A stretch of DNA of 64,000 nucleotides, taken from positions 199,956 through 263,955 of the forward strand of contig NZ_BLJO01000007.1 in assembly GCF_009932555.1 (NCBI RefSeq). Reading direction: 5' to 3'. A model generated the notes under the pieces. It ran no database searches, was not told the origin of the DNA, and saw only the letters and a list, made by a program, of their open reading frames with translations. The number at the start of each line of letters is the position of its first letter. Position 1 is the first letter of the stretch. Below are positions 28,403 through 44,946 of this stretch, piece after piece. This DNA is from Steroidobacter agaridevorans. Lineage in GTDB: Bacteria; Pseudomonadota; Gammaproteobacteria; Steroidobacterales; Steroidobacteraceae. The position numbers and the translations under genes are program-made.

Positions 28403-28741
28403 TTAAATAGACACCAGGCGCCACTTGCCGTCGAGGCCATCCCCTTTGGTTTCTCCGGGCGCATCTTTCGAGTAGGTGTACACGGGCTTGCCGCGATAAC
28501 TCCACTGGCGAGCGGCGCCTCGCTGGATGGATTTCCAATCGCCCACGACGGTCGATGCGCCTTCGGATGCGAGCACCGGCGGCCAGGTCTCGGCACATTT
28601 ATTTGTACAGTGGGACCGGCCGTCGACGTCCAGGTCGTAGGTATAGAGGGCCAAGCCCTCCTGGTTGCGCAGGACATAGGCGCCCCGGTCCTCAAAGACA
28701 CTGATATCTGCCGGCGTCGTGGGTGGCAATGTTTCGTTCAC
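28403..28741 (-). CDS. Single-domain PF03640 (secreted repeat) protein
   Basis: Start chosen at GTG 28741 because it overlaps the MBL gene's stop as GTGA, indicating coupled translation. The 112-residue product holds one PF03640-type unit: YVLRNQEGLALYTYDLD, CTNKCAETWPPVLA and ARQWSYRGKPVYTYSKDAPGE. These are the same signatures found three to four times in the two large paralogues upstream. It has no signal peptide of its own, which is odd for this exported family. Last gene of operon A. Confidence 0.8.
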   Translation of the reverse strand: MNETLPPTTPADISVFEDRGAYVLRNQEGLALYTYDLDVDGRSHCTNKCAETWPPVLASEGASTVVGDWKSIQRGAARQWSYRGKPVYTYSKDAPGETKGDGLDGKWRLVSI

Positions 28742-29691
28742 GGCAACTTTCCTTCCAGCTCCTGATAAACCTTCGCCACTGCCACCGGCCCCTGACTGCC
28801 GCTGGCGGGCCACTTCTTGTACGGCCCCCAATTCGCCTGCTCGATCGCCGGACAATTCTTTGCCGACTCGCACTTCAATCCGGCGGCGTGCAGCCGCTTC
28901 GACTCGGCGATCACAGACTGGGTGGCCTTCTTGAACTCGACCAGGTCGCGCTTCATTGCAGGCCCCTCATCCGTGAATCCATGCCCCGGGATGTACAAGG
29001 AAACATCCATCGCCAATGCCTTGTCGATGGTGGCCAGCCATTCGCTGGGATACGCACTGCGCATCGCAGGGAACAAGCCGCGCAGATACACCTCGCTCAT
29101 GAATAACACCTTGCTGGCCGGCAGATAGACGACCAGGTCGCCACCTGTATGCGCGCGTCCCAGGTTCAGCACTTGAATCTCGGTACCGCCGAGCTTGATC
29201 GTCTCGCGATCCTTCACCAATTTGCTCGGCACCGCCGCGTTCTTGGACCTGGCGAGCGCGTCCTTCGAGAAGGCGGTGGAAACAAACACCGCGTCGGGAT
29301 ACGCAGAAGTGAAGGCGGCGTTGCCGCCGGTGTGATCGCCGTGATCCGAGCCCACCACCACATACTTGACGGGCTGCGACGTCACCTTCTTGATCCGATC
29401 GATCAGCTGCTGGCTTTCGGCCACGTTGCCCTGCCCGTCGACCACCAGCACGCCCTCCTGGGTGATCACCACGAGAGAGACGGTGGTGAAGAGAGCGCCG
29501 CTCGGATCCGGCGAGTGCACTCCTTCAAATATATAAGCGTCGGACGCGACCTTCTGCCACCGCGGGAAATCTTCCTTTTTCAGGCCATTGTCGGCCAGCG
29601 CCGAAGAGCGGACCGAGTCCGGGCCGGACGCCACTGCGCCAACACTCAGGAGACCGGCCAGCAGGCCGGCGAGAAGACGACTGGAGCTCAT
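28738..29691 (-). CDS. Exported metallo-beta-lactamase-fold hydrolase
   Basis: The 317-residue product has a signal peptide (LLAGLLAGLLSVGAVAS). MBL-fold landmarks: VLVVDGQGN, a metal motif VVGSDHGDHTGGN, GRAHTGGDLVVYLP and YIPGHG. In the usual HxHxDH the first His is Ser115 here, so one zinc-1 ligand is missing while His117, Asp119 and His120 remain. The family hydrolyses esters, lactams or sulphates in the periplasm. It lies between a TonB receptor and a PF03640 gene in operon A. Confidence 0.85.
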   Translation of the reverse strand: MSSSRLLAGLLAGLLSVGAVASGPDSVRSSALADNGLKKEDFPRWQKVASDAYIFEGVHSPDPSGALFTTVSLVVITQEGVLVVDGQGNVAESQQLIDRIKKVTSQPVKYVVVGSDHGDHTGGNAAFTSAYPDAVFVSTAFSKDALARSKNAAVPSKLVKDRETIKLGGTEIQVLNLGRAHTGGDLVVYLPASKVLFMSEVYLRGLFPAMRSAYPSEWLATIDKALAMDVSLYIPGHGFTDEGPAMKRDLVEFKKATQSVIAESKRLHAAGLKCESAKNCPAIEQANWGPYKKWPASGSQGPVAVAKVYQELEGKLP

Positions 29692-29749
29692 GCGATTCGA
29701 CCTCGTTGCAGTTGGGGCGGACGTTGCCGTCCGCCCCGTGCCGTTGCGT

Positions 29750-32686
29750 TTAGAACTGGAAGCGCACGCCGACGCGATAGTAACGACCGAGGCGGTCGTA
29801 ATAATCGGCGTTGTCCTGGCCGTTGTAGTAACCGCCGCCGCGGGTACCGGCGACCAGCGCAGGTTCTTCGTTCAACAGGTTCTCGACCACCATGAACAGC
29901 TCAGCGCCCGAGTCGAGCAGCTTGCCGTTGAGCGACAGATCGAAGTACTTCACGCCATCGATGTGATTGCCGTCGATCGTCGGATTCGCCAGCGTCGACG
30001 TGGGGCAGCCCTCGGTACAAACAATAAAGGAGTTGTTGTACTTGCCCGAGCTGATGCCGCGCATCGTCAGCGTCGCCGTGACCGGCTCCCAGTTGTAGCC
30101 GGCAGAAACGAGATAGCGATACTTCGGCGACTGCAACGCATTGCCCAGTCCGATCCCGGCGCCGCCGGCGTTCAGGCCCGATCCTTCCACGGTCGCGCCC
30201 GAGTCCTTGGTCTGCAGCTTGTCGAAGTACGTGCCCAGAGCACGCAACTGCAGATCGCCCGGCCCGATCGGCAGGTTGTAGCTCATCTCGACGTCATAGC
30301 CGGACGCTTCCTGTCCCAGGATGTTCTGCGGCTGGTTGTACACGGTGACGATCTTGCCGTCCGCACCGCGAATGACGTAACGGCACAGGTCGGTGATGCC
30401 ACGCTCGCAGCGGTTGGCGTTTTCCTGCGCGCCGAGCGAAGCAATCGCGCCGTCGATCTCGATGTTGTAGTAGTCGATCGACATCGTGAAGCCCGGGATG
30501 AAGCGCGGCGAGAACACGATGCCGATACCGGTCGTGTCGGCCTCTTCCGGCTTCAGCTCCGGATTGCCGATGGTGACGCTCGTGACCAGGTATTGCGATT
30601 GATCTCTCGGATCGGTGAAGTTGCTGCCGCCGCTTTGTCCGGCATTGAACAGATCGCCGAGGCTGGGTGCACGGATATCGCGCGAACGCGTCAAGCGCAC
30701 ACGAATGTCGTCGATCGGTTGCCAGGTCGTACCGGCCTTCCAGGTGACCACATCGCCCGAGGTGCTGTAGTCCGTCCAACGCACGGCGCCGTTGAAGTCC
30801 AGCGACTGCGCAGCGGGTACGTTTGCCGCCAGCGGCACAACGGTTTCGACGAAGCCTTCCGTCACGTTGTAGTCACCCTTCGAGGCGTGATAGTTGCCGG
30901 CGAAGAACACACTCGGGCTGGCCTCGTCGAGCACGCTGGCCACACCGTCGACTTCCTCACGACGATGCTCGGCGCCGAATGCCAGGGAGATCGGCCCGGC
31001 CCAGGAAGAGAACGGCTGGCCGCTGGCGCTGATCGCGACCACGTCCTGCGTCAGCTCCTGATCGGCCCAACCCGTTTCGGTGATGTAGTCGATCACCGCC
31101 TGCGAGTTCACGCCGATGCCGAAGGGGTTGTACGGCACGCAGGCGGGATCGTCGTTCGCGGGGTTCGCGTCTGCGTTGACCGAGCACACGATGCGGCCCG
31201 AAGGATCGCGAACGGAATTGATCGCCTTGGTGTAATTCGGGTTGATGCGATTGCCCGGCGCCGTTTGCAACGCCTCCGTGGTGCTGCGTTGAGCGTAGGC
31301 GTCCCATGACCAATCGTCGCCGGCCATGGTGAAGCTGCCCTCGACGCCGAGCGCATAGCGCTTGAAGGTGCGCGTGTTATCGCCTGCCAGCGGCGGCAGG
31401 TCGGCGTTGGTCGTGCCCATGGCCAACGAGGTGACGTTGTTGGCGATCATGCCGTTGCGGATTTCATCCGGAATGAACGGGTTGGTGACCGGAATCTTCA
31501 GATTGAAATCGAACGTGCGCAGCGCGTGGTGATTGATCGCGCGCGTCTTGGACCAGCCCAGCTCGGCGAACACCGAAGTGTTGTCCGTCACATCGAAGCT
31601 GGCGCGACCGAACGCGGTGCTGCGATCCATCTGCATGGTCAGCGACTGCAGGTTGTCGTTGCGCGAACGTTCCCAATCGCCGCCCGACATATAGGGGTTG
31701 CTGATGACACTGCCGAAGTTGAACGGCAGATAGGCGCCGCCCTCGACGAAGTCCGTGCCGCGCAGCGGACAACCCGCTTGCACGGCAGTGTTCGGGGCCG
31801 TGCCGTAGTAACAGCCCGTGATCAAGCCGCCCGCAGTGGCTTGCGACATGCCGGTGTTGAATCGTTTGATCAGCTGCGGCTGGCCGTTGGTCGGGGTGTA
31901 AGCCGGATTGTTCATCAGCTGATATCCAGCATCGTTCCACGGACGGTTGTTGCCGCGGATCTCATCGGAGCCGGCCCATTCGGCGCTGAACAACACGTGG
32001 CCGCGAGAATCGGCGAACGGCGCGCCCAACGCCAGCGAGTACAGCTGGCTTTCGTTGTCGTGATACGTGGTCTCGCCGACTTGGGCCGTGCCCTTGATGC
32101 CGGTGAATTCTTTGTCGAGGATGAAGTTCACCACACCGGCCAACGCATCGGAGCCGTACACGGCGGACGCGCCGCCGGTCACGATTTCCACACGCTGGAT
32201 CAGCGCGGTCGGAATGGAGTTGACGTCGGGCGCGCCGGTGGCGGTATCGCCCGTGCCCAGCGTGGCCGGGACCATGCGCTTGCCATCCAACAGAACCAGG
32301 GTGCGATTGGCGCCCAGGCCGCGCAGGTTCAATGTGTTGATGCCAGCCGTGCCGGAGCTGATGTTACCGGAATAGTTGTGCGAGCTGCGGCCACCCGAGA
32401 GCGCCGGCAGGCGGTTCACCGAGTCGGCAAGGTTGGTCGTCGCCATCTGTGCGAGCTGCTCGGTACCGAGCACGGAGATCGGCGTCGGCGCTTCATAGCC
32501 ATCGCGCACGATGCGCGTGCCCGTCACGGTGACTACGTCGAGCACTGCGCCGCTGCTCTCCTGACTCTGCGCCTCTTGCGCGGACGCTGTGCCGGCGGCC
32601 AGCGTCGTCAACGCCAGCAGCGTGCTGCCGGCAATCCCCAGCGTACGGCGCACGGCCGCAGTCACCGAGTTCGTTTCCTTCATCAT
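29750..32686 (-). CDS. TonB-dependent outer-membrane receptor (operon A)
   Basis: Start chosen at ATG 32686 with GGGGAG 7 bp upstream, followed by a signal peptide (LLALTTLAAGTASAQ). The 978-residue receptor has a plug domain with VVTVTGTRIVRDG, LADSVNRLPALSGG, TLNLRGLGANRTLVLLDGKR, VEIVTGGASAVYGSDALAGVVNF, and a beta-barrel ending in YRVGVRFQF, the terminal-Phe assembly signal. It imports a ligand using TonB energy. No FecR-type signalling extension is present. Position in operon A suggests it takes up that system's substrate. Confidence 0.93.
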   Translation of the reverse strand: MMKETNSVTAAVRRTLGIAGSTLLALTTLAAGTASAQEAQSQESSGAVLDVVTVTGTRIVRDGYEAPTPISVLGTEQLAQMATTNLADSVNRLPALSGGRSSHNYSGNISSGTAGINTLNLRGLGANRTLVLLDGKRMVPATLGTGDTATGAPDVNSIPTALIQRVEIVTGGASAVYGSDALAGVVNFILDKEFTGIKGTAQVGETTYHDNESQLYSLALGAPFADSRGHVLFSAEWAGSDEIRGNNRPWNDAGYQLMNNPAYTPTNGQPQLIKRFNTGMSQATAGGLITGCYYGTAPNTAVQAGCPLRGTDFVEGGAYLPFNFGSVISNPYMSGGDWERSRNDNLQSLTMQMDRSTAFGRASFDVTDNTSVFAELGWSKTRAINHHALRTFDFNLKIPVTNPFIPDEIRNGMIANNVTSLAMGTTNADLPPLAGDNTRTFKRYALGVEGSFTMAGDDWSWDAYAQRSTTEALQTAPGNRINPNYTKAINSVRDPSGRIVCSVNADANPANDDPACVPYNPFGIGVNSQAVIDYITETGWADQELTQDVVAISASGQPFSSWAGPISLAFGAEHRREEVDGVASVLDEASPSVFFAGNYHASKGDYNVTEGFVETVVPLAANVPAAQSLDFNGAVRWTDYSTSGDVVTWKAGTTWQPIDDIRVRLTRSRDIRAPSLGDLFNAGQSGGSNFTDPRDQSQYLVTSVTIGNPELKPEEADTTGIGIVFSPRFIPGFTMSIDYYNIEIDGAIASLGAQENANRCERGITDLCRYVIRGADGKIVTVYNQPQNILGQEASGYDVEMSYNLPIGPGDLQLRALGTYFDKLQTKDSGATVEGSGLNAGGAGIGLGNALQSPKYRYLVSAGYNWEPVTATLTMRGISSGKYNNSFIVCTEGCPTSTLANPTIDGNHIDGVKYFDLSLNGKLLDSGAELFMVVENLLNEEPALVAGTRGGGYYNGQDNADYYDRLGRYYRVGVRFQF

Positions 32687-32804
32687 CAAACATCTCCCCT
32701 TATGTCGAGAAATCAATGAGCTCGCCTATTTGCGACAAGCCGAGGGTGCGCACCGGCGCTGCGGCCGGCGCAACAATTCAAATTCGAGTGAGCCGATGCG
32801 TCGG

Positions 32805-33884
32805 CTAGCGGGACTGGGAGACGGTGATGCTGGGCTCGCCGCGATCCAGATAAACCTGAGCCATATAAATGTTCACTGACGACGAAATCGCCGTCATCTT
32901 GCCGTTCTGATCCGGATAGCCATCGGCGTGTTGCCACAGCTTGCGCCAGAAGCCCGATGGGTCGAGCTGACCGTACGACAGGTGATGCGTCGACCAGCCC
33001 ATCACGGTGCGATAGTAGGTGTCGACATCCGCGTAGCCGGCCATCAACCCTTCCGCTCTGCCTTCGGTCAGCTGCAAGCGGAACTGCATGCCGCGGAACC
33101 GATACTCGTTGGTGTTCCCGAAGAACACCGCCCAGGGCCAGGTCACATCCTTGGCTTCCGTCTGCAGCACGCCGTTGACGATCTTCCCCTGCAACTGGTT
33201 GTAGAAACGTTTGCTGAAACGGTTGTCGACGCGCTGGGTGCCGCCCGGCATGATCTTGTCGCCGCCGGCATCGGTGAGCAGCGGATCCAGGCCCCGCAGA
33301 ATCGTCACCTGCACCGAGTCGTCGTTCCGCAGACTGTCGACGCCCGTGAGCTCGATGATCGAACGGTTGTAAGTCAGCTGACGAACCAGGCGATTGCCGA
33401 ACAGGCGGAACTGCCCTTCGGGCCCGCGAAATTGCGGGCTGCAGCCGATCACGCGATACAACGCGTTGTCGATGCCCTTCTCACCGGTGGGACTGGTGAA
33501 ATCTTTTGGCCCGACCTTGCCGTCCAGATTCAGGCCGATCGCGATCGGTCCCCGCGCTTCCGGCATCGGAAAGTTATCTTTGGAATCTTCCGGGTAGTAC
33601 TTCAACGCTTCGCGCGCCAGGTGCGTATCGATCTCGGTGCCGCCTTTCGGATACAGCTTGGCGAACACTTCACGCGGCCCGTACTTGTTGAGACCGTCGG
33701 GACACTCCGCCTTGCCGTCGGGCGTTTGATAGACGCCCCAGTACATGTCGGTGGTGACGTATGCGATGCGGCCATCGGGAGGTGCGGTGCCGTCGGCGGC
33801 GGAAGCAATCGCAGGCGCTACCGCGAGCGTTGCCACCGCGGTGAACGCACGCCATCCCAGTTGCTTAGCGAATGAATGTTTCAT
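32805..33884 (-). CDS. Exported protein of unknown function, paralogue of the 41592-42668 product
   Basis: Start chosen at ATG 33884 with GGGGGGA before it. The 359-residue product has a signal peptide (FTAVATLAVAPAIASAAD). I recognise no catalytic family. Conserved with its paralogue (358 residues): YVTTDMYWGVYQTPDGKAECP, IAIGLNLDGKVGPKDFTSPTGE, DNALYRVIGC, IELTGVDSLRNDDSVQVT, LLTDAGGDKIMPGGTQRVD, LMAGYADVDTYY and GWSTHHLSYGQ. The architecture suggests an all-beta periplasmic protein. Both copies follow a multi-repeat PF03640 gene, so the two gene products very probably work together. Confidence 0.8.
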   Translation of the reverse strand: MKHSFAKQLGWRAFTAVATLAVAPAIASAADGTAPPDGRIAYVTTDMYWGVYQTPDGKAECPDGLNKYGPREVFAKLYPKGGTEIDTHLAREALKYYPEDSKDNFPMPEARGPIAIGLNLDGKVGPKDFTSPTGEKGIDNALYRVIGCSPQFRGPEGQFRLFGNRLVRQLTYNRSIIELTGVDSLRNDDSVQVTILRGLDPLLTDAGGDKIMPGGTQRVDNRFSKRFYNQLQGKIVNGVLQTEAKDVTWPWAVFFGNTNEYRFRGMQFRLQLTEGRAEGLMAGYADVDTYYRTVMGWSTHHLSYGQLDPSGFWRKLWQHADGYPDQNGKMTAISSSVNIYMAQVYLDRGEPSITVSQSR

Positions 33885-33906
33885 CGTTCCCCCCGCAGTC
33901 GACCGC

Positions 33907-35250
33907 TCAAGTCTCGCTATGGGCGAAATCGTCTCGCACCCACAGAACCGTGAAACCATTGCGCTGGCCGTACATTTCGCCCGTCTGATCGCCTCTCACA
34001 TCGCCAGGCTCGACATCGTCCGCATAGGTGTAGAGCGGGCTGCCTCGATAGGCCCACACGCGAATGGCGCCAGCTTCGCCGGCGGTCGCGAGCCGGCCCG
34101 AGCGCGGCTCGATCTCGATCACCGACCACAACTTGTTGTCGCTCCTGGCGTTGGCATCGGCCAGCACGTACGGCCACTTCTTCAAACAACGGTCGACATT
34201 GCCGCCGCCGCAAATGGCGATGCGATATTCGGACGGCGAACCTGGGTAATCGCACGACAGCTGATCCAAGGAATCGTCCGAGCACAAATATGCGTACACG
34301 GCTTTGCCCTTGGCATCCGCGACCGCGACACCCTTTTGCGTGTCGATCAACTGGAACGGTTTCGGCAGGGCCGCGACCCGCTGCGTATAAACGTTGCTCC
34401 AGCCCGGCACGTCGGAGCCTTGCTGGCTGTAGAGATTGATGTCGCGGTTGTACGTGTACAGCGGCTGCTTGCGGAAAGCCCACTGACGCACGCCGGCGGC
34501 GCGCTCGACAATGGACCATTCGCCATCGGCTCTGGCCAGCGCCGGTGCGAGCACAGGCTTCCATGTGTCTTCACAAGCGCCCCGGCAATTCGATTTGTCC
34601 GGGCCGTCCTGGTCGGACGCGTAAACGGAATAGCCGTCGGCGTTCACGAGCAAACGGCCATTGAAGGTCGTCACGACGCTGAATCCCGGCGGAATCTTTG
34701 GCGACGGTCCGACCGGATAGCGGCCGGCCATTTGTTTCAACTGCTCGCGGTTCGTGCCACCGAGCACGTCGCCGGGCTGGCGATCGAGCACGGAGGTGTA
34801 CAGCGCCTGGCCATCATAGGCCCACTGCTTCGCACCGTCCGGCCGCGTAATCACAGTCCACTTATCGACCGGCTTCGCGTCCGCCGGCGCAATCACGGGC
34901 GGCCACATCGCGGCACAAGTCGGGCGCGTATCGAGATGCGGCAACACGAGCCCCGGCGGATAAGGACTGAATAGCCCCTCGCTGGTCGTCGTCACCTTGT
35001 TCGTGCAAGTGGATCGGCCCTTCTCATCGCCGACATAACCGCCGCGCAACGATTGGTACGGCCATTTATAGATCGTCTTGCCCTTGGCGTCGGCGAACAC
35101 CGGCCCTTCCAGCTCGGTGACGATGACTTGAATGCCAGGTGGCATCGGTGCACGAACGTATTGCTCTTTGACGACAGCCGGCGTCGAGGCAGCGAACGCG
35201 TGCCCCGCCGCCACGACACCGAGGAGCGCGCTATAGATGTAGTGTCTCAT
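33907..35250 (-). CDS. Exported multi-repeat PF03640 protein (operon A)
   Basis: Start chosen at ATG 35250, 8 bp after the DUF1552 stop, with a signal peptide (LLGVVAAGHAFAAS). The 447-residue product has four PF03640-like units, each with a Y-x-Y-x-x-D turn, a C-x3-C-x3-W-x-P motif and Q-W-(A/S)-Y-x-G-x-P-L-Y-T. Examples: CTNKV..MWPPVIAPADAKPV, QWAYDGQALYTS, CRGACEDTWKPVLAP, QWAFRKQPLYTY and WAYRGSPLYTYADD. The domain is often found in lipoproteins near electron-transfer genes; its function is unknown. It is paralogous to the 42682-44121 product over its whole length. Confidence 0.82.
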   Translation of the reverse strand: MRHYIYSALLGVVAAGHAFAASTPAVVKEQYVRAPMPPGIQVIVTELEGPVFADAKGKTIYKWPYQSLRGGYVGDEKGRSTCTNKVTTTSEGLFSPYPPGLVLPHLDTRPTCAAMWPPVIAPADAKPVDKWTVITRPDGAKQWAYDGQALYTSVLDRQPGDVLGGTNREQLKQMAGRYPVGPSPKIPPGFSVVTTFNGRLLVNADGYSVYASDQDGPDKSNCRGACEDTWKPVLAPALARADGEWSIVERAAGVRQWAFRKQPLYTYNRDINLYSQQGSDVPGWSNVYTQRVAALPKPFQLIDTQKGVAVADAKGKAVYAYLCSDDSLDQLSCDYPGSPSEYRIAICGGGNVDRCLKKWPYVLADANARSDNKLWSVIEIEPRSGRLATAGEAGAIRVWAYRGSPLYTYADDVEPGDVRGDQTGEMYGQRNGFTVLWVRDDFAHSET

Positions 35251-35258
35251 CGTCGCAA

Positions 35259-36608
35259 TCAGGCGAGGATCTCGCCGATCTCCTGAGACGTGGTATTCGA
35301 CTGCGTTCCCCACGACGGCACATCCACACCCATCAGCTTCAGCGCGGTATAGCCCATGCGCGTGCTCGCCGAACCCTTGCCGTCGATATGCAAGCCGGTC
35401 TTCATCTTGCCGCCCGCACGCCCCGCCGTGAGCATGGGCAGCCCGTCGATGGAATGAATCTTCGCGAACGACTGGTCGGTCGTCGCGTAGATCAGCATGT
35501 TGTCCAACAACGTGCCGTCGCCTTCCTTCACCTTGGAGAAGGCTTCCACGAAATAAGCCCAGTTCTCCATCGCGCGGCGCGTGAACCACGAAGCATTCGG
35601 TTGATAGCCCAGGCTTTCGTCGATGGGCTCCTCGTGAGTGGCAGTGTGATGCGGCTTGTCGTAGCCGTTCTTGGTCGTGCCCGAGAACGGCTTCGAGTAA
35701 AGCATGTTGAACACGCGCGTTTGATCGCACGCCACCGCCATGACCATCAGGTCGGTCATGATCTTGTGACGAGCCGCGACATGTTCCGCGTCGATGCCGG
35801 AGATCGCCTGCTCGACCGACTTCTTCGAAGGAACGACACACGCCTCACGCGGTTCGGGTCGCGTGACCTGCAACTCGAACTGACGCTCCAGATCGCGCAG
35901 CGAGCTGAAATATTGATCGAGGCGCTGCCTGTCGGCCGCGCCCACACTCGCCTGCATCTTCTTGGCGTCTTCCAGCACGCCCGACAGCGCGCTCTTGCGC
36001 ACCATGGTCATCGGGTCCGGCTTGAACTCGGGTGCATTGGGATCCTGGAAGCCGGCGCCGAACAGCTTCTCGTAGAGCGCCAGGGGCGAAGCGATCGCCG
36101 TGTTCACCGTGGTGGCATTCTCATAGCTGAGCGTATCGCGCTCATCGCTCGTGGCCGTCACGCTCAAAGACTGATAGCGCGTGCCGGCGGAAATCCTGCG
36201 CGCCACCGTCACGTCGATGGTCTGTCCCGGCCGATCGAACGTGCTCATCGGCGGCGAGCCGGCGCGCTGAATGACCCAGCCCGTGTAATGGCACAGGTTG
36301 GGCGCCGCGTCCCGGAAGCCGTTGAAGTTCGTGAGCAGATTGATGTGCTGACGCACCGGCTTGAAAGAAACGATCTCCTCAGGCAGGTCGTAGTCCGCAC
36401 CGATCTTCTTCGGCACGAAAATGGACTTGCTCATCCCGCAGCCCCACGACCACGTGCCGAAGCGCACCGGCAACGGTGCGCCGTCCGCATAGGCGGTGCC
36501 GTTGGTATTGAGGAAACAATCGAGCAGCGGCAGCGCCACGCTCACGGCGGCGCCGCCGAGCATGCCGCGCAGGACACGTCGTCTTGTGATGGGCCGTTTC
36601 ATCATCAT
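35259..36608 (-). CDS. Tat-exported DUF1552 protein
   Basis: The 449-residue product opens with a twin-arginine signal (TRRRVLRGMLGGAAVSVALPLLD) and matches DUF1552, a sulphatase-fold-like family (LPVRFGTWSWGCGM, HYTGWVIQRAGSPP, SLRDLERQFE, YDKPHHTATHEEP, NMLIYATTDQSFAKIHSIDGLP). The family is abundant in Planctomycetes and Myxobacteria, nearly always beside a DUF1592/DUF1588 protein, as here (14 bp gap). Function unknown; the Tat signal implies a cofactor or a complex folded in the cytoplasm. Confidence 0.9.
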   Translation of the reverse strand: MMMKRPITRRRVLRGMLGGAAVSVALPLLDCFLNTNGTAYADGAPLPVRFGTWSWGCGMSKSIFVPKKIGADYDLPEEIVSFKPVRQHINLLTNFNGFRDAAPNLCHYTGWVIQRAGSPPMSTFDRPGQTIDVTVARRISAGTRYQSLSVTATSDERDTLSYENATTVNTAIASPLALYEKLFGAGFQDPNAPEFKPDPMTMVRKSALSGVLEDAKKMQASVGAADRQRLDQYFSSLRDLERQFELQVTRPEPREACVVPSKKSVEQAISGIDAEHVAARHKIMTDLMVMAVACDQTRVFNMLYSKPFSGTTKNGYDKPHHTATHEEPIDESLGYQPNASWFTRRAMENWAYFVEAFSKVKEGDGTLLDNMLIYATTDQSFAKIHSIDGLPMLTAGRAGGKMKTGLHIDGKGSASTRMGYTALKLMGVDVPSWGTQSNTTSQEIGEILA

Positions 36609-36622
36609 TCCCCCGAACTCGT

Positions 36623-38410: not shown

Positions 38411-38449
38411 TGACACACAAAAATTATCAACTCAATACTTTGTGTGTCA
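38411..38449 (-). promoter_or_regulatory. 39-bp inverted-repeat operator of operon A
   Basis: TGACACACAAA (38411-38421) and its perfect complement TTTGTGTGTCA (38439-38449) flank a 17-bp AT-rich spacer. The left edge is 79 bp before ATG 38332. The same element with the same 39-bp span lies before operon B. A degenerate half-site TGACACAT is at 38567-38574. The remainder of 38450-38718 shows two hairpins and no gene. Confidence 0.75.
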
Positions 38450-38631
38450 TTTGTTGCAGCGTTGTAGCGCGGATAAACCGGCGACGACAATCTTTCGAAG
38501 CGCGCCGGTTTCGTGCATTACTTTTACGGGGAGGTCCCCGCACGCTGCAAATACGCACTCGGAAGGTGACACATACAACTGTCCGCTGTCAGGTCATCGG
38601 AAAATCGATGCGCGGACGGGTGTTTTGACGA

Positions 38632-38652
38632 CGATATTTCGTCGTCGGCGCC
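38632..38652. repeat. Hairpin downstream of the Lrp/AsnC gene
   Basis: GACGACGA pairs with TCGTCGTC across a TATT loop, and a second short GC hairpin (CCCGCT with AGCGGG) lies just beside it. They follow the minus-strand regulator gene and may end operon B transcription, although the bases after the stem on that strand are A-rich rather than T-rich. Confidence 0.4.
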
Positions 38653-38718
38653 CGCTGCGGAGCGGGTCGTTGATAATTACTACTTGGGGGTGCGAGCGCT
38701 CCGCGGGCCTACAAGCCG

Positions 38719-39195
38719 TCACATGAGCGGCAGCGAGGTCGTGTACTTGACCTGCGCCACCGACGTCATGCAACGGACCTCGCGGATGTGCGGGACGTGA
38801 TCGAGCTTGTCGAAATGAAAGCGGTGGTAGGCATCTATATCGGGCACGACCACTCTCAACATGAAATCGAATGCCCCCAGGATCGCGTGACACTCCAGCA
38901 CCTCCGGCAACTCACGGATGGCCCGCGAGAACTCGGCGATGCTGGTGGGATCCTTCTTGTTGACCCTGACGTGCACGAACAGCTGCGTGCCGACGCCGAG
39001 CTTGGTGCGATCGAGCAACGCGACCACGCCCGAGATCCAGCCGTCTCTTCTGAATTGTTGAATGCGTCGCCAGCACTGCGGCTGGGACAAGCCGACTTCG
39101 GAAGCGATCTTGCTGCACGGGAGCGATGCGTCGCTCTGCAAGAGAACGAGAATCCTGCGATCGATATCGTCGATGACTGGCGTCTCGTTCTCCAT
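38719..39195 (-). CDS. Lrp/AsnC-family transcriptional regulator
   Basis: Start chosen at ATG 39195 with GGAG 7 bp upstream. The 158-residue product has an N-terminal helix-turn-helix (IDDIDRRILVLLQSDAS, KIASEVGLSQPQCWRRIQQF) and a C-terminal RAM/AsnC ligand-binding domain (FVHVRVNKKDPTSIAEF, EVLECHAILGAFDFMLRVVVPDIDAYHRF). Lrp proteins form octamers binding well-spaced DNA sites in response to small ligands. It is the last gene of operon B and lies just upstream of operon A, so it is the natural candidate to bind the two shared inverted repeats. Confidence 0.92.
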   Translation of the reverse strand: MENETPVIDDIDRRILVLLQSDASLPCSKIASEVGLSQPQCWRRIQQFRRDGWISGVVALLDRTKLGVGTQLFVHVRVNKKDPTSIAEFSRAIRELPEVLECHAILGAFDFMLRVVVPDIDAYHRFHFDKLDHVPHIREVRCMTSVAQVKYTTSLPLM

Positions 39196-39215
39196 GGCGT
39201 GCTCCGTGCGTTGGG

Positions 39216-40088
39216 TTAGTTCGCCGGCGGAATGAAGCCTTGAATCTGCTTCACCGCGTACTCCACCTTGAGATCGAAGGCGCGCTTGCCGAGCTTGGCG
39301 CTCGACTTGCGACCGTCGCCGACGATGCCGTTCTTCAGCGCCGGATCGGTCACGGCCTGCGGCTTGCCATCCGGACCGACCGGAATGCCGACGGCGTCCT
39401 TCAGCTTGTTCTTGCGCACGTACGTGCCGTCCTTGTCGAGGTACATCATGATGGATGTATCCGTCAGGCCGCCGTGCAGGCTCTGCGGATACCCCATGGC
39501 GGCAACCTCCTTGTCGAAGGCCGTGTTCGCCGGCATGTACACCTGATCGCAATAGAACACGTGAATGCCCTGCGCGCTGTACTTGTCGTTCAGCTTCGTG
39601 GCCACGCGACGATAAACATTCTTATCGCCTTCGCCCTGCCCGCCGCCGTGGTCGCCCATCAGGACCACATTCTTGAAGCCGGTCGCGATCGACTGCTCCG
39701 TCATGCGCTCCAGCACGGCCTCCAACAGATCGGGCGTCAGGCCGATCGTGCCAGGCAATTCGGCGCTGGCATTGTTCGGCGTGATCGGCAGCACCGGCAT
39801 TGCGATGGCATTGCCGAGCTTCTGCGCGATTGCTTTGACGATGCCGCGCGCCATCAGATTGTGGCCGCCGTTGGCATTCTGCGGACCGCGCTGCTCGACG
39901 CCGCCGGTGTAGATAAGTGCAGTCGTCTTGCCGGCAGCCAAGGCATCCCGCACTTCGGGCCAGGTCATCAGCTCGAACTCGACCCGCTGTGAAGAGGACG
40001 CCGCGTTCGCCATGCCCGGCATCGTCGCGCTCAGCGCTGCCGTTGCGAGGAATGCTGCCGTCAGGCTTGCTTTGAGAACTTTGCGCAT
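39216..40088 (-). CDS. Exported creatininase-family protein with altered metal site
   Basis: The 290-residue product has a signal peptide (LTAAFLATAALSATMPGMANA), unusual for this mostly cytoplasmic amidohydrolase family. The fold markers are present: YTGGVEQRGP (canonical GSxEQHGP), MGDHGGGQGEG (canonical NGHGGN) and LHGGLTDTS (canonical HAGExETS). Glu65 and His147 are kept, but the usual metal-binding His after EQ is Arg67, and His76 stands where the next acidic ligand is expected. It may have lost or changed its metal chemistry. It lies between the transporter and regulator genes of operon B. Confidence 0.8.
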   Translation of the reverse strand: MRKVLKASLTAAFLATAALSATMPGMANAASSSQRVEFELMTWPEVRDALAAGKTTALIYTGGVEQRGPQNANGGHNLMARGIVKAIAQKLGNAIAMPVLPITPNNASAELPGTIGLTPDLLEAVLERMTEQSIATGFKNVVLMGDHGGGQGEGDKNVYRRVATKLNDKYSAQGIHVFYCDQVYMPANTAFDKEVAAMGYPQSLHGGLTDTSIMMYLDKDGTYVRKNKLKDAVGIPVGPDGKPQAVTDPALKNGIVGDGRKSSAKLGKRAFDLKVEYAVKQIQGFIPPAN

Positions 40089-40111
40089 GTCTTGCCTTTT
40101 ACTCTCTACTA

Positions 40112-41452
40112 TCAGCCGGCGCCGGCCGGAGCCGAAACCGTTTGCGGTGAAACCTCATCATCGCGCTCCGCGTCACGATCGATCTCGCCCTCGTAGCGCT
40201 TCACGAACAAGCTCGCCAGGACGCCGAGCACTGCCGCCGCCGTCAGGAAGTAGGCCGGCGCGGACAACGATCCCGTCTCGCGAATCAAAGCGGTGGCAGC
40301 CAGCGGCGCGGCGCCACTGAAGAAGGTCATGCCGATGTTGAACACCAATGCAATGCCCGTGAAACGGATGCGCGTGGGAAACAGATCGGCGATCAGGAAA
40401 GCAAACGTTCCATTGAACAGCCCGGCCACGATTCCGCCCAACACGAGCGGCAGCCACGGATTCGCGGTGCTGCCGACGATGGCGTCGTACCACGCGAACG
40501 AGAACAGCACGAACATCGACGTGCCCAACAACATGAGATGGCGGGGCGCGATGCGGCTGCCGAGCCACGCCGTCGCCAACAAAGCGAAGCTGTGGACGAT
40601 CAATGCCATGTTCTGAGCCACGATGGCCTTGTTCGGGTCGACGCTCAGGACGGTTTTGAGATAGGCCGGCATGTACGCGAACAGCAAGCCGTTGAACGCT
40701 CCTGTGCTCGCCACCAGCCCGATGCCGATCAGCACCCGGCGCGGATGATTCCGCAGCAGTTCCGCGAACGGACTCGACGACGCTTGTTTCTTCACGCGCT
40801 CGAACTCGGGCGATTCCTCCAGCGAGCGGCGCACCCAGAAGCCCAGCAGACCCAATGCGCCGCCGATCCAGAACGGAATCCGCCAGCCGTACGAGCTCAC
40901 TTGTTCCGGCGTCATGAAGCTCTGGATCACCAGGCTGAGCACGGTCGCGATCACGACGCCGCCCATGACACAGAAGAACACGAAGCCGCTGGCGAACGCG
41001 GCGCGCTTCGGCGCGACTTCCACCACATACGTCATGGCGCCAGGCAGCTCGCCGCCCAGACAGAATCCCTGCAACAGTCGCAGGAACACCATCAACATCG
41101 GCGCAGCGAGACCCCACTGCTCGAAGGAAGGCACCAGGCCCATGCCCAGCGTCGCACCCGACATGCCGAGCAGCGAGATGACGAACACTCGCCGGCGACC
41201 GAAGCGATCGCCGAAGTGGCTCAGCACGATCCCGCCGACCGGCCGCGCGACATAGCCGACCGCGAAGGCGCCGAACGACGCCATCAACGAAACCAATGAG
41301 GACGACGCAGGGAAGATGGCGCGCGCGATCTCCGCCGCGAATATTCCGTAGATGATGAAGTCGTAATACTCGAGCGCCCCGCCCAGACTGGCGAGCAGCG
41401 TGGTGCGTCTGCTCGACGCGGACAATCGAGATGTTTCGGGTGTAGAGCTCAA
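40112..41452 (-). CDS. MFS transporter, metabolite:H+ symporter (MHS/ProP-like) type
   Basis: Start chosen at TTG 41452 because AGGGGAG lies 6 bp upstream; a TTG at 41476 would lie upstream of that site. The product (446 residues) has twelve predicted helices. MHS-family signatures: EYYDFIIYGIFA in helix 1, GGIVLSHFGDRFGRRRVF in loop 2-3, LLQGFCLGGELPGA in helix 4, and a TRIRFTG motif in loop 10-11. MHS members import carboxylates, betaines or dicarboxylates. The substrate is not evident. Third gene of operon B after a 139-bp gap, so it may have its own promoter. Confidence 0.88.
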   Translation of the reverse strand: MSSTPETSRLSASSRRTTLLASLGGALEYYDFIIYGIFAAEIARAIFPASSSLVSLMASFGAFAVGYVARPVGGIVLSHFGDRFGRRRVFVISLLGMSGATLGMGLVPSFEQWGLAAPMLMVFLRLLQGFCLGGELPGAMTYVVEVAPKRAAFASGFVFFCVMGGVVIATVLSLVIQSFMTPEQVSSYGWRIPFWIGGALGLLGFWVRRSLEESPEFERVKKQASSSPFAELLRNHPRRVLIGIGLVASTGAFNGLLFAYMPAYLKTVLSVDPNKAIVAQNMALIVHSFALLATAWLGSRIAPRHLMLLGTSMFVLFSFAWYDAIVGSTANPWLPLVLGGIVAGLFNGTFAFLIADLFPTRIRFTGIALVFNIGMTFFSGAAPLAATALIRETGSLSAPAYFLTAAAVLGVLASLFVKRYEGEIDRDAERDDEVSPQTVSAPAGAG

Positions 41453-41591
41453 CTGTGTCTCCCCTGCTCTATCCAAGCTGATCGATGGTGCACGCCAGAC
41501 CGTCAGCTTGTCCGCGCGAGCGCGCGTGAGCCAACCACTCGATCTATCGTGTGTGGAGCTGCCGCCGGCCGTCGAGCCGCGCAGCGCCGCT

Positions 41592-42668
41592 TCAACGCTT
41601 GCTCACCAGCTCCTGGTCGGGACGCTGGATGAACACCTGGGTGAATTTCACTCGCATGGCCGAGGAAATCGCGGTGTTCCAGCCGGTCTTCGGATCGGGA
41701 TAACCGTCGGCGAGACGGTCCATCGCCTGGTGCTGCGTGATCGACGAGAACTGTCCGTAGCTCTGATGGTGAGTGGACCAGCCTTCGTTCTTGCGCAGCG
41801 TGTAGCTGTCCACATCGGCGTAGCCGGCCAGCAGGCCTTCGGCCGTCTGCGGCGTCAGCTTCAATTTGAAGCGAGCGCCGCGGAATACTTGATACTGATA
41901 AGAAACACCGCGGCCCCAAGGAATCAGCAGCGTGTCCATCGGATTGGAGATCAACGTGCCGTCGACGATCTTGCCCTTCGCCTTGCTGATGTAGCGCTTG
42001 CCCCAGCGCATGTCGATCCGCTGCGTGCCGCCCGGCACGAACGCGTCGCCGGTGGCGTCGGTCAGGAGATTGTCCAGACCGCGATAGGTCGTGATCGTCA
42101 CATCGTCATCGTTGTTCAGGTCGTCGACACCGGCGATCTCGATCAGCACGCGGCTGTCTTCGCTGGATTTCATGAACAGATTTTCGAAGTGCGCGAACGA
42201 GCCGCCGGCGCGATATCCGGCGATGCAGCCATTGGCGCGATACAACTGATTGTCGACGCCCGGCTCGCCTTCGGGGCTCACGAAATCGTTCGCGTCCTCC
42301 TTGCCGTCCAGGTTCAGGCCATAGGAGATCTTGCCCTGCACTTCCTTGTACGGCATTTTGTAAGTGGCCGTTTCGGGATGCCACTGCTCGCCCTCGCGCT
42401 TGAGCTGCGTCTCGACCACGGTGCGCTGCTGGCCGTCCTCGGGGAATATTTTCTTGAACTCTTCGCGATTGCCGTCGTTGAAGCCCTGCGGACACTCTTC
42501 CTTGCCGTCCTTGGTTTCGTACACGGCCCAGACTCTCTCGGTCATCACATAGCCGATGACGCCATTTTCCAGCACCGGGCTTTCTTCCCTCGGCGCGGCG
42601 CCAGCCGTGTTGGCGAGGCACAAGCTCATCGCTACACCCAGGGTCAGCGAAATGCGCTTCGATCTCAT
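41592..42668 (-). CDS. Exported protein of unknown function, paralogue of the 32805-33884 product
   Basis: Start chosen at ATG 42668, directly behind GGAGG. The 358-residue product has a signal peptide (LTLGVAMSLCLANTAGAAP). It aligns along its length with the operon A copy: YVMTERVWAVYETKDGKEECP, ISYGLNLDGKEDANDFVSPEGE, DNQLYRANGC, IEIAGVDDLNNDDDVTIT, LLTDATGDAFVPGGTQRID, LLAGYADVDSY and EGWSTHHQSYGQ. No known family is recognised. It follows the large PF03640 gene by 13 bp, as its paralogue does. Confidence 0.8.
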   Translation of the reverse strand: MRSKRISLTLGVAMSLCLANTAGAAPREESPVLENGVIGYVMTERVWAVYETKDGKEECPQGFNDGNREEFKKIFPEDGQQRTVVETQLKREGEQWHPETATYKMPYKEVQGKISYGLNLDGKEDANDFVSPEGEPGVDNQLYRANGCIAGYRAGGSFAHFENLFMKSSEDSRVLIEIAGVDDLNNDDDVTITTYRGLDNLLTDATGDAFVPGGTQRIDMRWGKRYISKAKGKIVDGTLISNPMDTLLIPWGRGVSYQYQVFRGARFKLKLTPQTAEGLLAGYADVDSYTLRKNEGWSTHHQSYGQFSSITQHQAMDRLADGYPDPKTGWNTAISSAMRVKFTQVFIQRPDQELVSKR

Positions 42669-42681
42669 GTTCAGCCTCCGA

Positions 42682-44121
42682 CTAGAAACTGTAGGCGCTG
42701 TTGCCGAAATCGTCCCTGAGCCAGAACGCCCGATAGCCGTTGCGGCGTCCATTGAATTCACCGAAGGAATCGCAGTTGGCATCGCCCGGCTGACGATCCA
42801 GCGAGCACGTGTACACCGGCCGCTCGCGATAGGCCCACACGCTCGAGGCGCCGGCCTGACCCTGGGTCGCGCGACGGCCCGTGTTCGGGTCGATCGACAT
42901 CACGCTCCACAGCCTGCTGTCGCTCTTGGCGTTGGCGGCCGCCGGCACGTATGGAAAGCTTTCCTGACATAGCTTGGGATCGCTGTTGCCACAGATCGCC
43001 AGGCGATACGCCTGCTCGGTATCGGGATGATCGCAAGCGAGCTGGTCGCGCGCATCGTCGCCGCAGTTATATATGTAGACGGTCATGCCCTTCGCATCCG
43101 CGAGCACCTGCCCGGCAATCGAGTCCTGCACGGTGAAGTCCTTCGGCGGAGCGATCGCGCGCTGGGTGTAGACGTTGTGCCAGCCCGGCACATCGCTGCC
43201 CACCAGACTGCGCGTGCTTCGATCCAGAACATAGGTGTACAGCGGCTTCTTGCGGAACGTCCATTGCTTGATGCCCGGCGAGCGCTCGATGATGCCCCAC
43301 TCGCCATTCGGCACGGCGGTCACCGCCGCAAACACCGGCGCCCAGTCTTTCAGGCACTCGCGCATGCACTTCGATTTGTTCGGCTCGTCGCCATCCCACG
43401 TGTAAACGGAAAAGCCCTTGTGGTCCGTGAGCAAGCGGCCCGTGGCCGTTTGCAGCGGACCGTATCGATTCGGATCGGCATCGGTGCCAGCGAACTCGGG
43501 CGGAACATTCGCCGGCGGCCCGACCGGGACACGCACGGCGGGCCCGTCGCCGGATCTCTGGATCTTCGTGCCGCCGAGCACGTCGCCCGGCTTCTTATCC
43601 AGGTCGGAGGTGTACAAGGGATAGCCGCCGTAGCTCCACTGCAGCTTGCCGTCGGCGCGCTTGATCGTGGTCCACTCGTTGTGCCCCGAGCCGACAGGCT
43701 TGGCGTCCGCCGGCGCGATCAACGGCGGCCACACCTGCGTGCAGCTCTTGCGTGCCTCCACATTCGGCAGCACCAGCCCGCCCGGATACGGACTCATCAG
43801 GCCCGAGGTCACCTTCTGCACTTCGTCGGTACAGCTGGAAATGCCGCTGTCTTTGCGATCGCCGATATCGCCGTTGCGCAGCTTGGTCAGCGGCCAGATA
43901 TAAAGCGTCTTGCCGTTCGCATCGGCGAACACCGGCCCATCGAGCTCGGTATTGACGACCTGGATGCCGGGCGGCATCGGCACGCGCACATAGTTTTCTT
44001 TATCCGTGCTGGACGCCGACTGCCAATAGTCCGCTATCGGCTGCTCCTGAGCAGCCAATGCAAGCGAGGCGCACATAGTCGCGCCCGCCAGAACCCCCAC
44101 CGAACCCCGCAGTCGTCGCAT
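42682..44121 (-). CDS. Exported multi-repeat PF03640 protein (operon B)
   Basis: Start chosen at ATG 44121 with AGAGAG 4 bp upstream. The 479-residue product has a signal peptide (VLAGATMCASLALAAQ) and PF03640-like units. Repeats include YVRVPMPPGIQVV, CTQVWPPLIAPADAKPV, LQWSYGGYPLYTSDLDKKPGD, CMRECLKDWAPVFA, QWTFRKKPLYTYVLD and WAYRERPVYTC. Compared with the operon A paralogue it shares the opening Y-V-R-x-P-M-P-P-G-I-Q and the closing NGxxxxWxRDDF. Many paired cysteines suggest disulphides. First gene of operon B. Confidence 0.82.
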   Translation of the reverse strand: MRRLRGSVGVLAGATMCASLALAAQEQPIADYWQSASSTDKENYVRVPMPPGIQVVNTELDGPVFADANGKTLYIWPLTKLRNGDIGDRKDSGISSCTDEVQKVTSGLMSPYPGGLVLPNVEARKSCTQVWPPLIAPADAKPVGSGHNEWTTIKRADGKLQWSYGGYPLYTSDLDKKPGDVLGGTKIQRSGDGPAVRVPVGPPANVPPEFAGTDADPNRYGPLQTATGRLLTDHKGFSVYTWDGDEPNKSKCMRECLKDWAPVFAAVTAVPNGEWGIIERSPGIKQWTFRKKPLYTYVLDRSTRSLVGSDVPGWHNVYTQRAIAPPKDFTVQDSIAGQVLADAKGMTVYIYNCGDDARDQLACDHPDTEQAYRLAICGNSDPKLCQESFPYVPAAANAKSDSRLWSVMSIDPNTGRRATQGQAGASSVWAYRERPVYTCSLDRQPGDANCDSFGEFNGRRNGYRAFWLRDDFGNSAYSF

Positions 44122-44191
44122 AATTCTCTCTTGTGTCAAACCATCTCGGATACTGCCTTACTGCGGTCCGGCAGCGGTGACTTAACGAATT

Positions 44192-44230
44192 TGACACACA
44201 AATTCCTTACTAGCAACAAATCGTGTGTCA
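44192..44230 (-). promoter_or_regulatory. 39-bp inverted-repeat operator of operon B
   Basis: TGACACACAAA (44192-44202) and GTGTGTCA (44223-44230) form an inverted repeat with exactly the same outer span (39 bp) as the element before operon A. Its left edge is 70 bp before ATG 44121. An extra half-site TGTGTCA is at 44132-44138. The rest of 44231-44397 shows no gene. Confidence 0.72.
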
Positions 44231-44397: not shown

Positions 44398-44946
44398 TTA
44401 TTCCGCGAGTGTCGAGAAATCGCAGGCCGTAGTGTTGAATCTTGTACGAAACGTCCGAGTGACCGGCGCTTCGCCGGGAAATCGGCACTCCGCGTCGAGC
44501 CGTATGCCGTTTCCCGCCATACGAGCAATCACACGGAACGCATCCGACGAGTTGCCGCGGCGGATCCACGTTGTCATCGGGCCCGACCATTGGAACTTGC
44601 TCCGAAGCACCTCGTCGCGCACGCGCCGATGTTCGCCTTTTCGGACGTAGCCAGAACGCTCCAACTCACGCATCGCCCGACTGATTTGTTCGAGACCGAA
44701 CAAATTCGCGCGCTCGCCGCGGAACTCGTCCAGATCGTATTTCAAATGCACATCGACCACGCCATCGCAGGGCTCTTCGACCGCCTCCCGATCACTGCGA
44801 TAGACATTCAATTTGGAGAAGCCGCCAGTCTCGACCTTGCACTTTTTCAAGGCAAGTACGCACATGAACTCCACCACGGCCGGCGAGTGCCGCCAGCGTC
44901 GCTGGTCATCGATGTCTCGCAAATCTACGTCGCGCAGTTTCGTCAT
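44398..44946 (-). CDS. Uncharacterised protein, paralogue of the 48738-49508 product
   Basis: The 182-residue product has no signal peptide or membrane segment and no family I recognise. It aligns with the 256-residue product of 48738-49508: HSPAVVEF...SKLNV, RAMRELERSGYVRKGEHRRVRDEVLR (part) and SDAFRVIARMAGNGIRLDAE. The middle may be a small helical domain and the DAFR...GIRLDAE part a beta-rich one. It overlaps the upstream gene as ATGA, so both are translated together. It is shorter than the paralogue at its C-terminus. Confidence 0.7.
   Translation of the reverse strand: MTKLRDVDLRDIDDQRRWRHSPAVVEFMCVLALKKCKVETGGFSKLNVYRSDREAVEEPCDGVVDVHLKYDLDEFRGERANLFGLEQISRAMRELERSGYVRKGEHRRVRDEVLRSKFQWSGPMTTWIRRGNSSDAFRVIARMAGNGIRLDAECRFPGEAPVTRTFRTRFNTTACDFSTLAE

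Follow-up and report, generated by a model that had tools for sequence, protein, structure and literature searches.

Which regulator, if any, recognises the 39-bp inverted repeat that precedes two minus-strand operons of Steroidobacter agaridevorans? We examined the repeat in a window of 64,000 nucleotides (the whole stretch of DNA that was analysed) and in related genomes. An earlier note on this DNA had suggested a shared operator but proposed no particular regulator. The repeat TGACACAC-N23-GTGTGTCA is present letter-perfect at 38411-38449 and 44192-44230, the coordinates given in that note, and lies 78 bp from ATG 38332 and 70 bp from ATG 44121, the likely starts, in agreement with the 70-80 bp noted before. 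GTG 38416 indeed falls within the first site. The two operons and their sites comprise the following features.

38411..38449, minus strand: predicted PaaX-type operator of operon 1; arms 38411-38421 and 38439-38449, TTG 38435-38433 on the minus strand; exact repeat, 48.3 bits
36623..38332, minus strand: operon 1 gene 1, PSCyt3/PSD protein (Pfam DUF1592, DUF1588, DUF1595, DUF1585); start ATG 38332 chosen from the start list
35259..36608, minus strand: operon 1, DUF1552 (HXXSHH) protein (Pfam)
33907..35250, minus strand: operon 1, Lipoprotein_15 repeat protein (Pfam); start by inspection
32805..33884, minus strand: operon 1, protein X, family not known, without Pfam or NCBIfam match; start by inspection
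29750..32716, minus strand: operon 1, TonB-dependent receptor (Pfam)
28738..29691, minus strand: placed in operon 1 by position, metallo-beta-lactamase-fold hydrolase, nearest to quinoprotein-relay models but below their cut-offs
44192..44230, minus strand: predicted PaaX-type operator of operon 2; arms 44192-44199 and 44223-44230, TTG 44216-44214 on the minus strand; exact repeat, 36.5 bits
42682..44121, minus strand: operon 2 gene 1, Lipoprotein_15 repeat protein (Pfam); start ATG 44121
41592..42668, minus strand: operon 2, protein X paralogue, by similarity to protein X of operon 1; start by inspection
40112..41476, minus strand: operon 2, MFS transporter, nearest to a metabolite/H+ symporter model (2A0106) but below its cut-off
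39216..40088, minus strand: operon 2, creatininase-family amidohydrolase (Pfam), below the NCBIfam creatininase cut-off
38719..39195, minus strand: operon 2, Lrp/AsnC-type regulator (Pfam); start by inspection

The two operons are related, which corrects the earlier note: their Lipoprotein_15 proteins are 53% identical and the proteins X that follow them 47%. At E <= 0.001 neither Pfam nor NCBIfam matched protein X, and with no match in Pfam an assignment of this gene, the fourth in the module, to DUF4331 was not supported. The AlphaFold2 model of protein X from operon 2 (mean pLDDT 89.4) found no PDB match at E <= 0.001, so the fold yields no function. Judged by eye from its N-terminus, protein X of operon 1 was taken as secreted. 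No paa genes were found in either operon.

The exact repeat occurs in the 8-Mb draft genome only at the two window sites. With up to 3 mismatches allowed, the window held 2 matches against 0.14 expected, and at least 2 were reached in 1 of 100 shuffles; the whole genome held 12 places compared with 6 for the reversed control. When the gap between the arms TGACACA and TGTGTCA was left free from 10 to 40, three places were found genome-wide, every one with a gap of 25 (span 39), and none with the control. Perfect 8-bp inverted repeats of span 39 number seven in the window, both operator sites counted; the repeat form itself is therefore not rare, and the common sequence is the unusual part. Two additional half-sites, TGACACAT (38567) and TGACACAA (44131), were rejected, as half-sites with at most 1 mismatch occur in the window at chance level (33 seen versus 39.8 expected) and the one at 44131 is not conserved in Peristeroidobacter agariperforans.

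The third free-gap match sits between paaA and a PaaX gene of the same genome. PaaX proteins form a winged-helix, GntR-like family that governs phenylacetate catabolism. A fourth site, with 1 mismatch to a version of the pattern that contains TTG in the spacer, precedes a thioesterase gene and paaK (paaI-paaK), whose PaaK scores above the NCBIfam cut-off. At up to 1 mismatch, the TTG-containing pattern has four places in the genome, each upstream of genes (paaA, paaI-paaK, operon 1 and operon 2); the other three genome places carry 3 mismatches each, against three control places. These close matches do not show the scatter of many copies inside genes that, by the earlier note, would have refuted a shared operator. 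The E. coli PaaX site is TGATTC(N27)GAATCA, also of span 39 (PMC9493321), and our search of one strand of 19 kb of E. coli K-12 returned a sole match, TGATTC-N27-GAATCG, which ends 13 bp before paaA. Both window sites fit the form TGAnnC-N27-GnnTCA with an outer span of 39.

The same element accompanies paaX across the family. A 39-bp site matching 11 or more of the 14 arm bases was found at 27 of the 28 paaX-type loci, the exception being L071. (L071 was left out of both trees; L053, cut out of frame in the first tree, was left out of the second.) At 12 or more of 14 arm bases, these loci gave 27 matches at span 39 and 8 at span 41; of the remaining spans between 24 and 55, none gave more than 3. 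We trained a weight matrix on 27 sites next to paaX in other genomes; it gave the scores listed above for the window sites and at most 5.1 in the rest of the window, shifted readings aside. With the P. agariperforans orthologues (42.1 and 35.5) excluded, no score in loci L102-L179 (1.17 Mb with overlaps) exceeded 18.6. The exact pattern was found at 41 sites in 30 of 217 family genomes, and the reversed control at none. Thirty-four of these sites lie at paa genes (29 at paaX and/or paaA, 2 at paaI-paaK and 3 at paaJ) and 6 at the PSCyt3-DUF1552-Lipoprotein_15 module; the remaining one is some 4 kb away from a PaaK gene.

This comparative evidence, which comes from sequence, supports the suggestion of a shared operator. 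We estimate a probability of roughly 90% that a PaaX-family repressor uses each 39-bp element as its operator. Seven span-39 repeats in one window and the partial paralogy of the operons could point instead to chance, or to recent copying of a single promoter, but we consider this hardly credible, given that the two spacers differ, that P. agariperforans retains both sites, and that the count of 41 sites faces a control of zero.

The earlier note had called the spacers unrelated. They do differ, yet not wholly, as TTG stands at motif positions 15-17 in both, in the direction of transcription, and likewise in this genome's sites at paaA and paaI-paaK. TTG was present in 18 of the 27 matrix-training sites and 12 of 26 further sites of family genomes; that it is not universal counts against the PaaX reading. 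Where present, it pointed toward the target gene at 17 of 17 sites of the loci compared. ATGACA-N16-GATAAT also lies within the operon 1 site (2 promoter-like sites found versus 1.1 expected), and this second promoter reading, which rivals the TTG in the target direction, likewise weighs against the PaaX reading. Arms of 8-11 bp located 70-78 bp upstream of the likely starts would also be able to pair in RNA, so that the repeats might be leader hairpins and not DNA operators. We regard this as very improbable, because paaX loci hold the span at 39 while their spacers vary, the E. coli PaaX site has an equal span (PMC9493321), and TTG faces the target gene as a promoter element would.

How far the putative operator follows the module can be seen in other genomes. 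The module consists of PSCyt3/DUF1592, DUF1552, Lipoprotein_15 and protein X genes together with TonB receptor, MFS and creatininase-like genes. In P. agariperforans (L030), the operon 1 site is conserved before the orthologous operon, and the orthologue of the operon 2 site (L030:4177) differs by a single base in its 7-bp arms and has several spacer changes. The site is also found with the module in two genomes of another genus, g18. One of them, G187, carries a site before MFS-creatininase and a second between a PaaX paralogue and LP15-TonB-PSCyt3-DUF1552-LP15-X; the other, G188, carries it before MFS-creatininase-LP15-TonB-PSCyt3-DUF1552-LP15-X.

Several counts speak against the PaaX reading. 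Of the 7 Lipoprotein_15 copies identified in the S. agaridevorans genome, just 2 belong to site-bearing operons. Lipoprotein_15 copies occur in 8 of 120 family genomes, and a scan of their 1.5-kb flanks together with the genome-wide exact pattern located the site at copies in two, this genome and P. agariperforans. A search of 78 module loci drawn from a wider range of genomes found the relaxed site in P. agariperforans only. In L082, an 11/14 arm-base match lies inside a Lipoprotein_15 gene. The metagenome-assembled genome G147 has TGATAC-N27-GTATCA in its paaA promoter and candidate sites before a TonB gene (2 arm mismatches) and a PSCyt3 gene (3). Since sites with up to 3 mismatches occur there at chance (91 versus 89 in the control) and no near-perfect palindromes were found in those intergenic stretches, these candidates add little support.

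The last gene of operon 2 encodes an Lrp/AsnC protein, and Lrp-like genes 33-44% identical to it lie less than 10 kb from the site in 8 of 10 paaA loci (L033 and L034 being the exceptions). Another regulator such as this one might therefore own the operator and act at the paa sites as well. We find this very unlikely. Lrp boxes are 15-bp degenerate palindromes, the site adjoins paaX in nearly all paaX-type loci, and its span is that of the E. coli PaaX site (PMC9493321). The G187 and G188 module contigs also gave no strong match to the operon 2 Lrp beyond an overlap of 46% over 127 with the G188 creatininase gene.

If a PaaX-family repressor is the regulator, the genome offers two candidates, both PF07848 proteins above cut-off with three PaaX Pfam domains each. 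PaaX1, identified by Pfam and position, adjoins paaA. PaaX2 (C7:66956-67909) is divergent from a third module copy, TonB-PSCyt3-DUF1552-LP15-X-creatininase, and scores 259.4 bits against the PaaX equivalog TIGR02277, under the cut-off of 264.55, so we name it PaaX-like only. PaaX2 and not the paa PaaX might read the operator in vivo and respond to an inducer other than phenylacetyl-CoA, which overlaps with our main reading and which we hold to be possible though doubtful. Its counterpart in P. agariperforans is likewise divergent from the module, as is the G187 PaaX paralogue, with a site in between. By eye, PaaX1 and PaaX2 look very alike in their N-terminal winged-helix regions, which makes recognition of the same site plausible. 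On the other hand, the score just below the cut-off means that the site of PaaX2 may have changed, and its own promoter has no site at 11/14 arm bases either here or in P. agariperforans, which also counts against the PaaX reading in general. A GC-rich repeat of span 39 at the PaaX2 start, TGGCGCA-N25-TGCGCCA (L027:9719-9757), was discarded because its right arm is not kept in P. agariperforans. Moreover, just one PaaX match was found in G188 (89% complete), although the site precedes its module; G147 also has a single match, and its module sites are weak.

Under regulation by PaaX, a dimer or a pair of dimers would grip both half-sites, which are separated by about three helical turns, across the promoter and would keep RNA polymerase off. 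The inducer of E. coli PaaX is phenylacetyl-CoA. This compound or a relative may free PaaX, and its release would then induce both operons along with those of paaA and paaI-paaK. We tentatively suggest, at somewhat below even odds, that the module, including the TonB receptor, MFS and creatininase-like genes, serves to take up an aromatic compound and oxidise it to phenylacetyl-CoA by a route not yet characterised, recruited into the PaaX regulon and placed beside its own PaaX paralogue in two genera. If true, this would be a first function for one class of PSCyt3-type genes, for which none was known in 2017 (PMC5615132). The kind of operator is already known; the targets are new, and for their families we found no known function. 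The regulatory link names a condition (phenylacetate or a compound yielding it) and mutants (paaX1, paaX2) with which to probe them, and the specificity of the exact pattern within the family, where nearly all sites are at paa genes or the module, makes the link testable at once.

The literature searched on PaaX operators, regulon and TonB contained no printed link between PaaX and the module; none of the matches listed for PaaX with TonB had a title on the module, and no literature joining DUF1592 with DUF1552 was found. PaaX reportedly controls penicillin G acylase in E. coli and is said to control the upper styrene pathway in Pseudomonas sp. Y2. As in those cases, PaaX would here reach past paa to peripheral genes. 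The targets are unrelated: a PSCyt3/DUF1552/Lipoprotein_15/TonB module, of which the chemistry is not known. With the E. coli PaaX operator, the window sites share the 39-bp outer span, palindromic TGA...TCA arms and a PaaX-family gene in the genome, while the arms read TGACAC/GTGTCA instead of TGATTC/GAATCA; unlike the E. coli operator, the element also lies upstream of two operons where paa genes were not found. The planctomycete-type PSCyt/PSD genes of Verrucomicrobia belong to the same domain families as the module. There, PSCyt3 genes usually adjoin a family of genes of unknown function, which is not named there; DUF1552 is counted 3 times in the paper and was not found in its main text (PMC5615132). 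The verrucomicrobial PSCyt genes point to carbohydrates and not aromatics (PMC5615132), which we count against the PaaX reading. Some of the PSCyt/PSD genes in Verrucomicrobia are tied to carbohydrate-binding modules, whereas here, in a gammaproteobacterium, they are accompanied by Lipoprotein_15, protein X and a predicted PaaX-type operator.

The earlier note had described an inverted repeat shared by two minus-strand operons. Two exact copies of TGACACAC-N23-GTGTGTCA indeed lie at the positions it named, 78 bp (operon 1) and 70 bp (operon 2) from the likely ATG starts, and a pattern search across the 8.0-Mb draft genome, in which the window is contig C7, 199956-263955, revealed no exact copies besides these two. 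The operon limits were set by position alone.

28738-38332, minus strand: operon 1, with genes in the order PSCyt3/PSD protein (DUF1592/1588/1595/1585), DUF1552, Lipoprotein_15 (LP15), protein X, TonB receptor, metallo-hydrolase
38411-38449: 39-bp site ahead of operon 1
38719-44121, minus strand: operon 2, with genes in the order LP15, X, MFS, creatininase-like, Lrp/AsnC
44192-44230: 39-bp site ahead of operon 2

Paralogous pairs across the two operons are 53% and 47% identical. Protein X (32805-33884 and 41592-42668) has no Pfam or NCBIfam match, and the predicted structure of its operon 2 copy, a confident model, found no PDB match at E <= 0.001. Upstream of operon 2 are three ORFs without a Pfam match (44398-44946, 44943-45677 and 48738-49508), the first and last of which resemble each other by eye.

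With the arms TGACACA and TGTGTCA and the gap left free between 10 and 40, the whole draft genome contained three places, every one spanning 39 bp (reversed control, 0). The third is flanked by paaA (Pfam PaaA_PaaC) and by a gene carrying the three PaaX domains. When TTG in the spacer was added to the pattern, four places had at most one mismatch, namely paaA, operon 1, operon 2 and paaI-paaK, the last upstream of genes for a 4HBT thioesterase and a phenylacetate-CoA ligase (PaaK, exceeding its NCBIfam cut-off); a further three had three mismatches, versus 3 places in the control. A looser pattern gave 16 places versus 5 in the control, and the 12 besides these four appear, by eye, to be GC-rich and to lack the other features.

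Across the family, exact TGACACA-N25-TGTGTCA occurred at 41 sites in 30 of 217 genomes, and never in the reversed control. Judged by protein matches to our query set (for the last site also Pfam and NCBIfam), paaX and/or paaA adjoin 29 sites (in G151 only paaX), paaI-paaK two and paaJ three. The gene module of the window operons accounts for six: two in this genome, one in Peristeroidobacter agariperforans, two in G187 and one in G188, the last two being draft genomes of another genus. The P. agariperforans operon 2 site has one arm base changed and hence falls outside the 41. The remaining site, in the L217:2750-9797 region of G207, has an indolepyruvate-oxidoreductase-like gene, whose score falls short of the cut-off, on one side and a molybdo-oxidoreductase Fe-S gene on the other, with a PaaK gene about 4 kb away; this may be a PaaX-controlled branch of anaerobic phenylacetate metabolism.

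A PaaX2-like search (E <= 1e-30) of 120 family genomes found matches in 31. The search supplied 30 loci, with none for G032, where the match was weak, or for the additional match in this genome and in P. agariperforans; 28 remain after setting aside PaaX2, the second PaaX-like protein of this genome, and its P. agariperforans counterpart. In a scan with the span fixed at 39, 27 of the 28 had a site next to paaX that matched 11 or more of the 14 arm bases, L071 having none; neither PaaX2 locus had one at this threshold. With the span free between 24 and 55 and 12 of 14 arm bases, 27 of 28 loci matched at 39 and eight at 41, and no further span exceeded three. Lowering the requirement to 11 of 14 raised the counts for spans 37 and 41 to 18 and 17 loci, probably because the ACAC repeat was read in a shifted register. 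A weight matrix was trained on these 27 sites, to which neither this genome nor P. agariperforans contributed; it gave the window sites 48.3 and 36.5 bits. The window's eight highest-scoring places all fall on the two sites or on shifted readings of the first, leaving at most 5.1 bits for every other place. The P. agariperforans copies scored 42.1 and 35.5; with these set aside, the best score in 1.17 Mb of partly overlapping loci (L102-L179) was 18.6.

TTG stood at positions 15-17 toward the target gene in 17/17 sites of our first site-neighbourhood survey, and was present in 12/26 further family sites counted by hand; among the 27 training sites it pointed toward paaA in 18 and toward paaX in none. 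It may be a -35 element. A promoter scan offered a competing candidate, ATGACA-N16-GATAAT, within the operon 1 site.

Besides the Lrp/AsnC gene of operon 2 itself, eight of ten paaA loci (L028, L035-L041) have Lrp/AsnC-like genes no more than 10 kb from the site, which slightly raises the odds that such a regulator, not PaaX, acts at the operator; we still regard this as very improbable. For PaaX as the predicted regulator, either the protein beside paaA (PaaX1) or PaaX2 could read the sites, because their winged-helix regions are, by eye, closely similar. The PaaX2 gene (C7:66956-67909; L027:9757-10713) lies on the same contig about 170 kb from the window operons and diverges from the module's third copy (TonB-PSCyt3-DUF1552-LP15-X-creatininase), where the 39-bp site is absent. 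TGGCGCA-N25-TGCGCCA at the PaaX2 start (span 39, L027:9719-9757) was rejected, as its right arm is not conserved in P. agariperforans. The PaaX2 pair of these two species is sister to the paa PaaX of the genus (99/98) and the module PaaX of G187 is placed elsewhere (87/92, weak), so PaaX paralogues seem, from the tree, to have come to adjoin the module more than once.

P. agariperforans KA5-B (G011; L030, L136) keeps both operons and both sites. In G188, a single exact site precedes the consecutive genes MFS-creatininase-LP15-TonB-PSCyt3-DUF1552-LP15-X, and the relaxed pattern also matches once within the PSCyt3 gene there. G187 has one site ahead of MFS-creatininase; its second separates LP15-TonB-PSCyt3-DUF1552-LP15-X, after which come cytochromes c' and c, from a PaaX paralogue in divergent orientation. 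PaaX matches number one in G188 (89% complete) and two above the cut-off in G187, plus a third below it (22.2 bits). By identity, PSCyt3, DUF1552, LP15 and X of both genomes are closer to the third module copy here than to operon 1, and the identity of their MFS and creatininase genes to those of operon 2 is 76-80%. Among the best 78 loci of 173 relatives in an LP15-alignment search, many on short contigs, X was near LP15 in 74, DUF1552 in 61, PSCyt3 in 58 and PaaX in two; the relaxed site occurred only in P. agariperforans (L136). For the LP15 loci of the 120 family genomes, a separate scan took in 1.5-kb flanks and would miss operons starting further off; the exact pattern was searched across whole genomes. 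One of the two PaaX loci, in MAG Biocath_Gamma_028 (L105/L110), is an island that combines paa genes, PaaX and PaaK with TonB, LP15-X, a PSCyt3-DUF1552-LP15-X set and the homogentisate pathway, which ties the module to aromatic catabolism beyond the Steroidobacteraceae; candidate sites ahead of its module genes are weak. Two of seven LP15 paralogues in this genome lie in site-bearing operons and five have no site. Since most module copies were seen without it, the site-module link is confined to a subset of modules.

The sequence, position and conservation of the sites and the gene content of the operons are direct observations. From gene content, a putative substrate yielding phenylacetyl-CoA would be taken up by the TonB receptor and MFS protein, its amide hydrolyzed by the creatininase-like protein, and periplasmic oxidation carried out by PSCyt3, with cytochromes c in relatives. 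By analogy with E. coli PaaX, as described in a review (PMC9493321), PaaX on the site would repress by excluding RNA polymerase, and phenylacetyl-CoA would release it. In 19 kb around paa of E. coli K-12, a one-strand search for TGATTC and GAATC at gaps of 15-40 gave a single match, whose gap is 27 and whose end lies 13 bp upstream of paaA. The site that the review gives for E. coli PaaX, TGATTC(N27)GAATCA (PMC9493321), likewise spans 39 bp, as do the sites described here.
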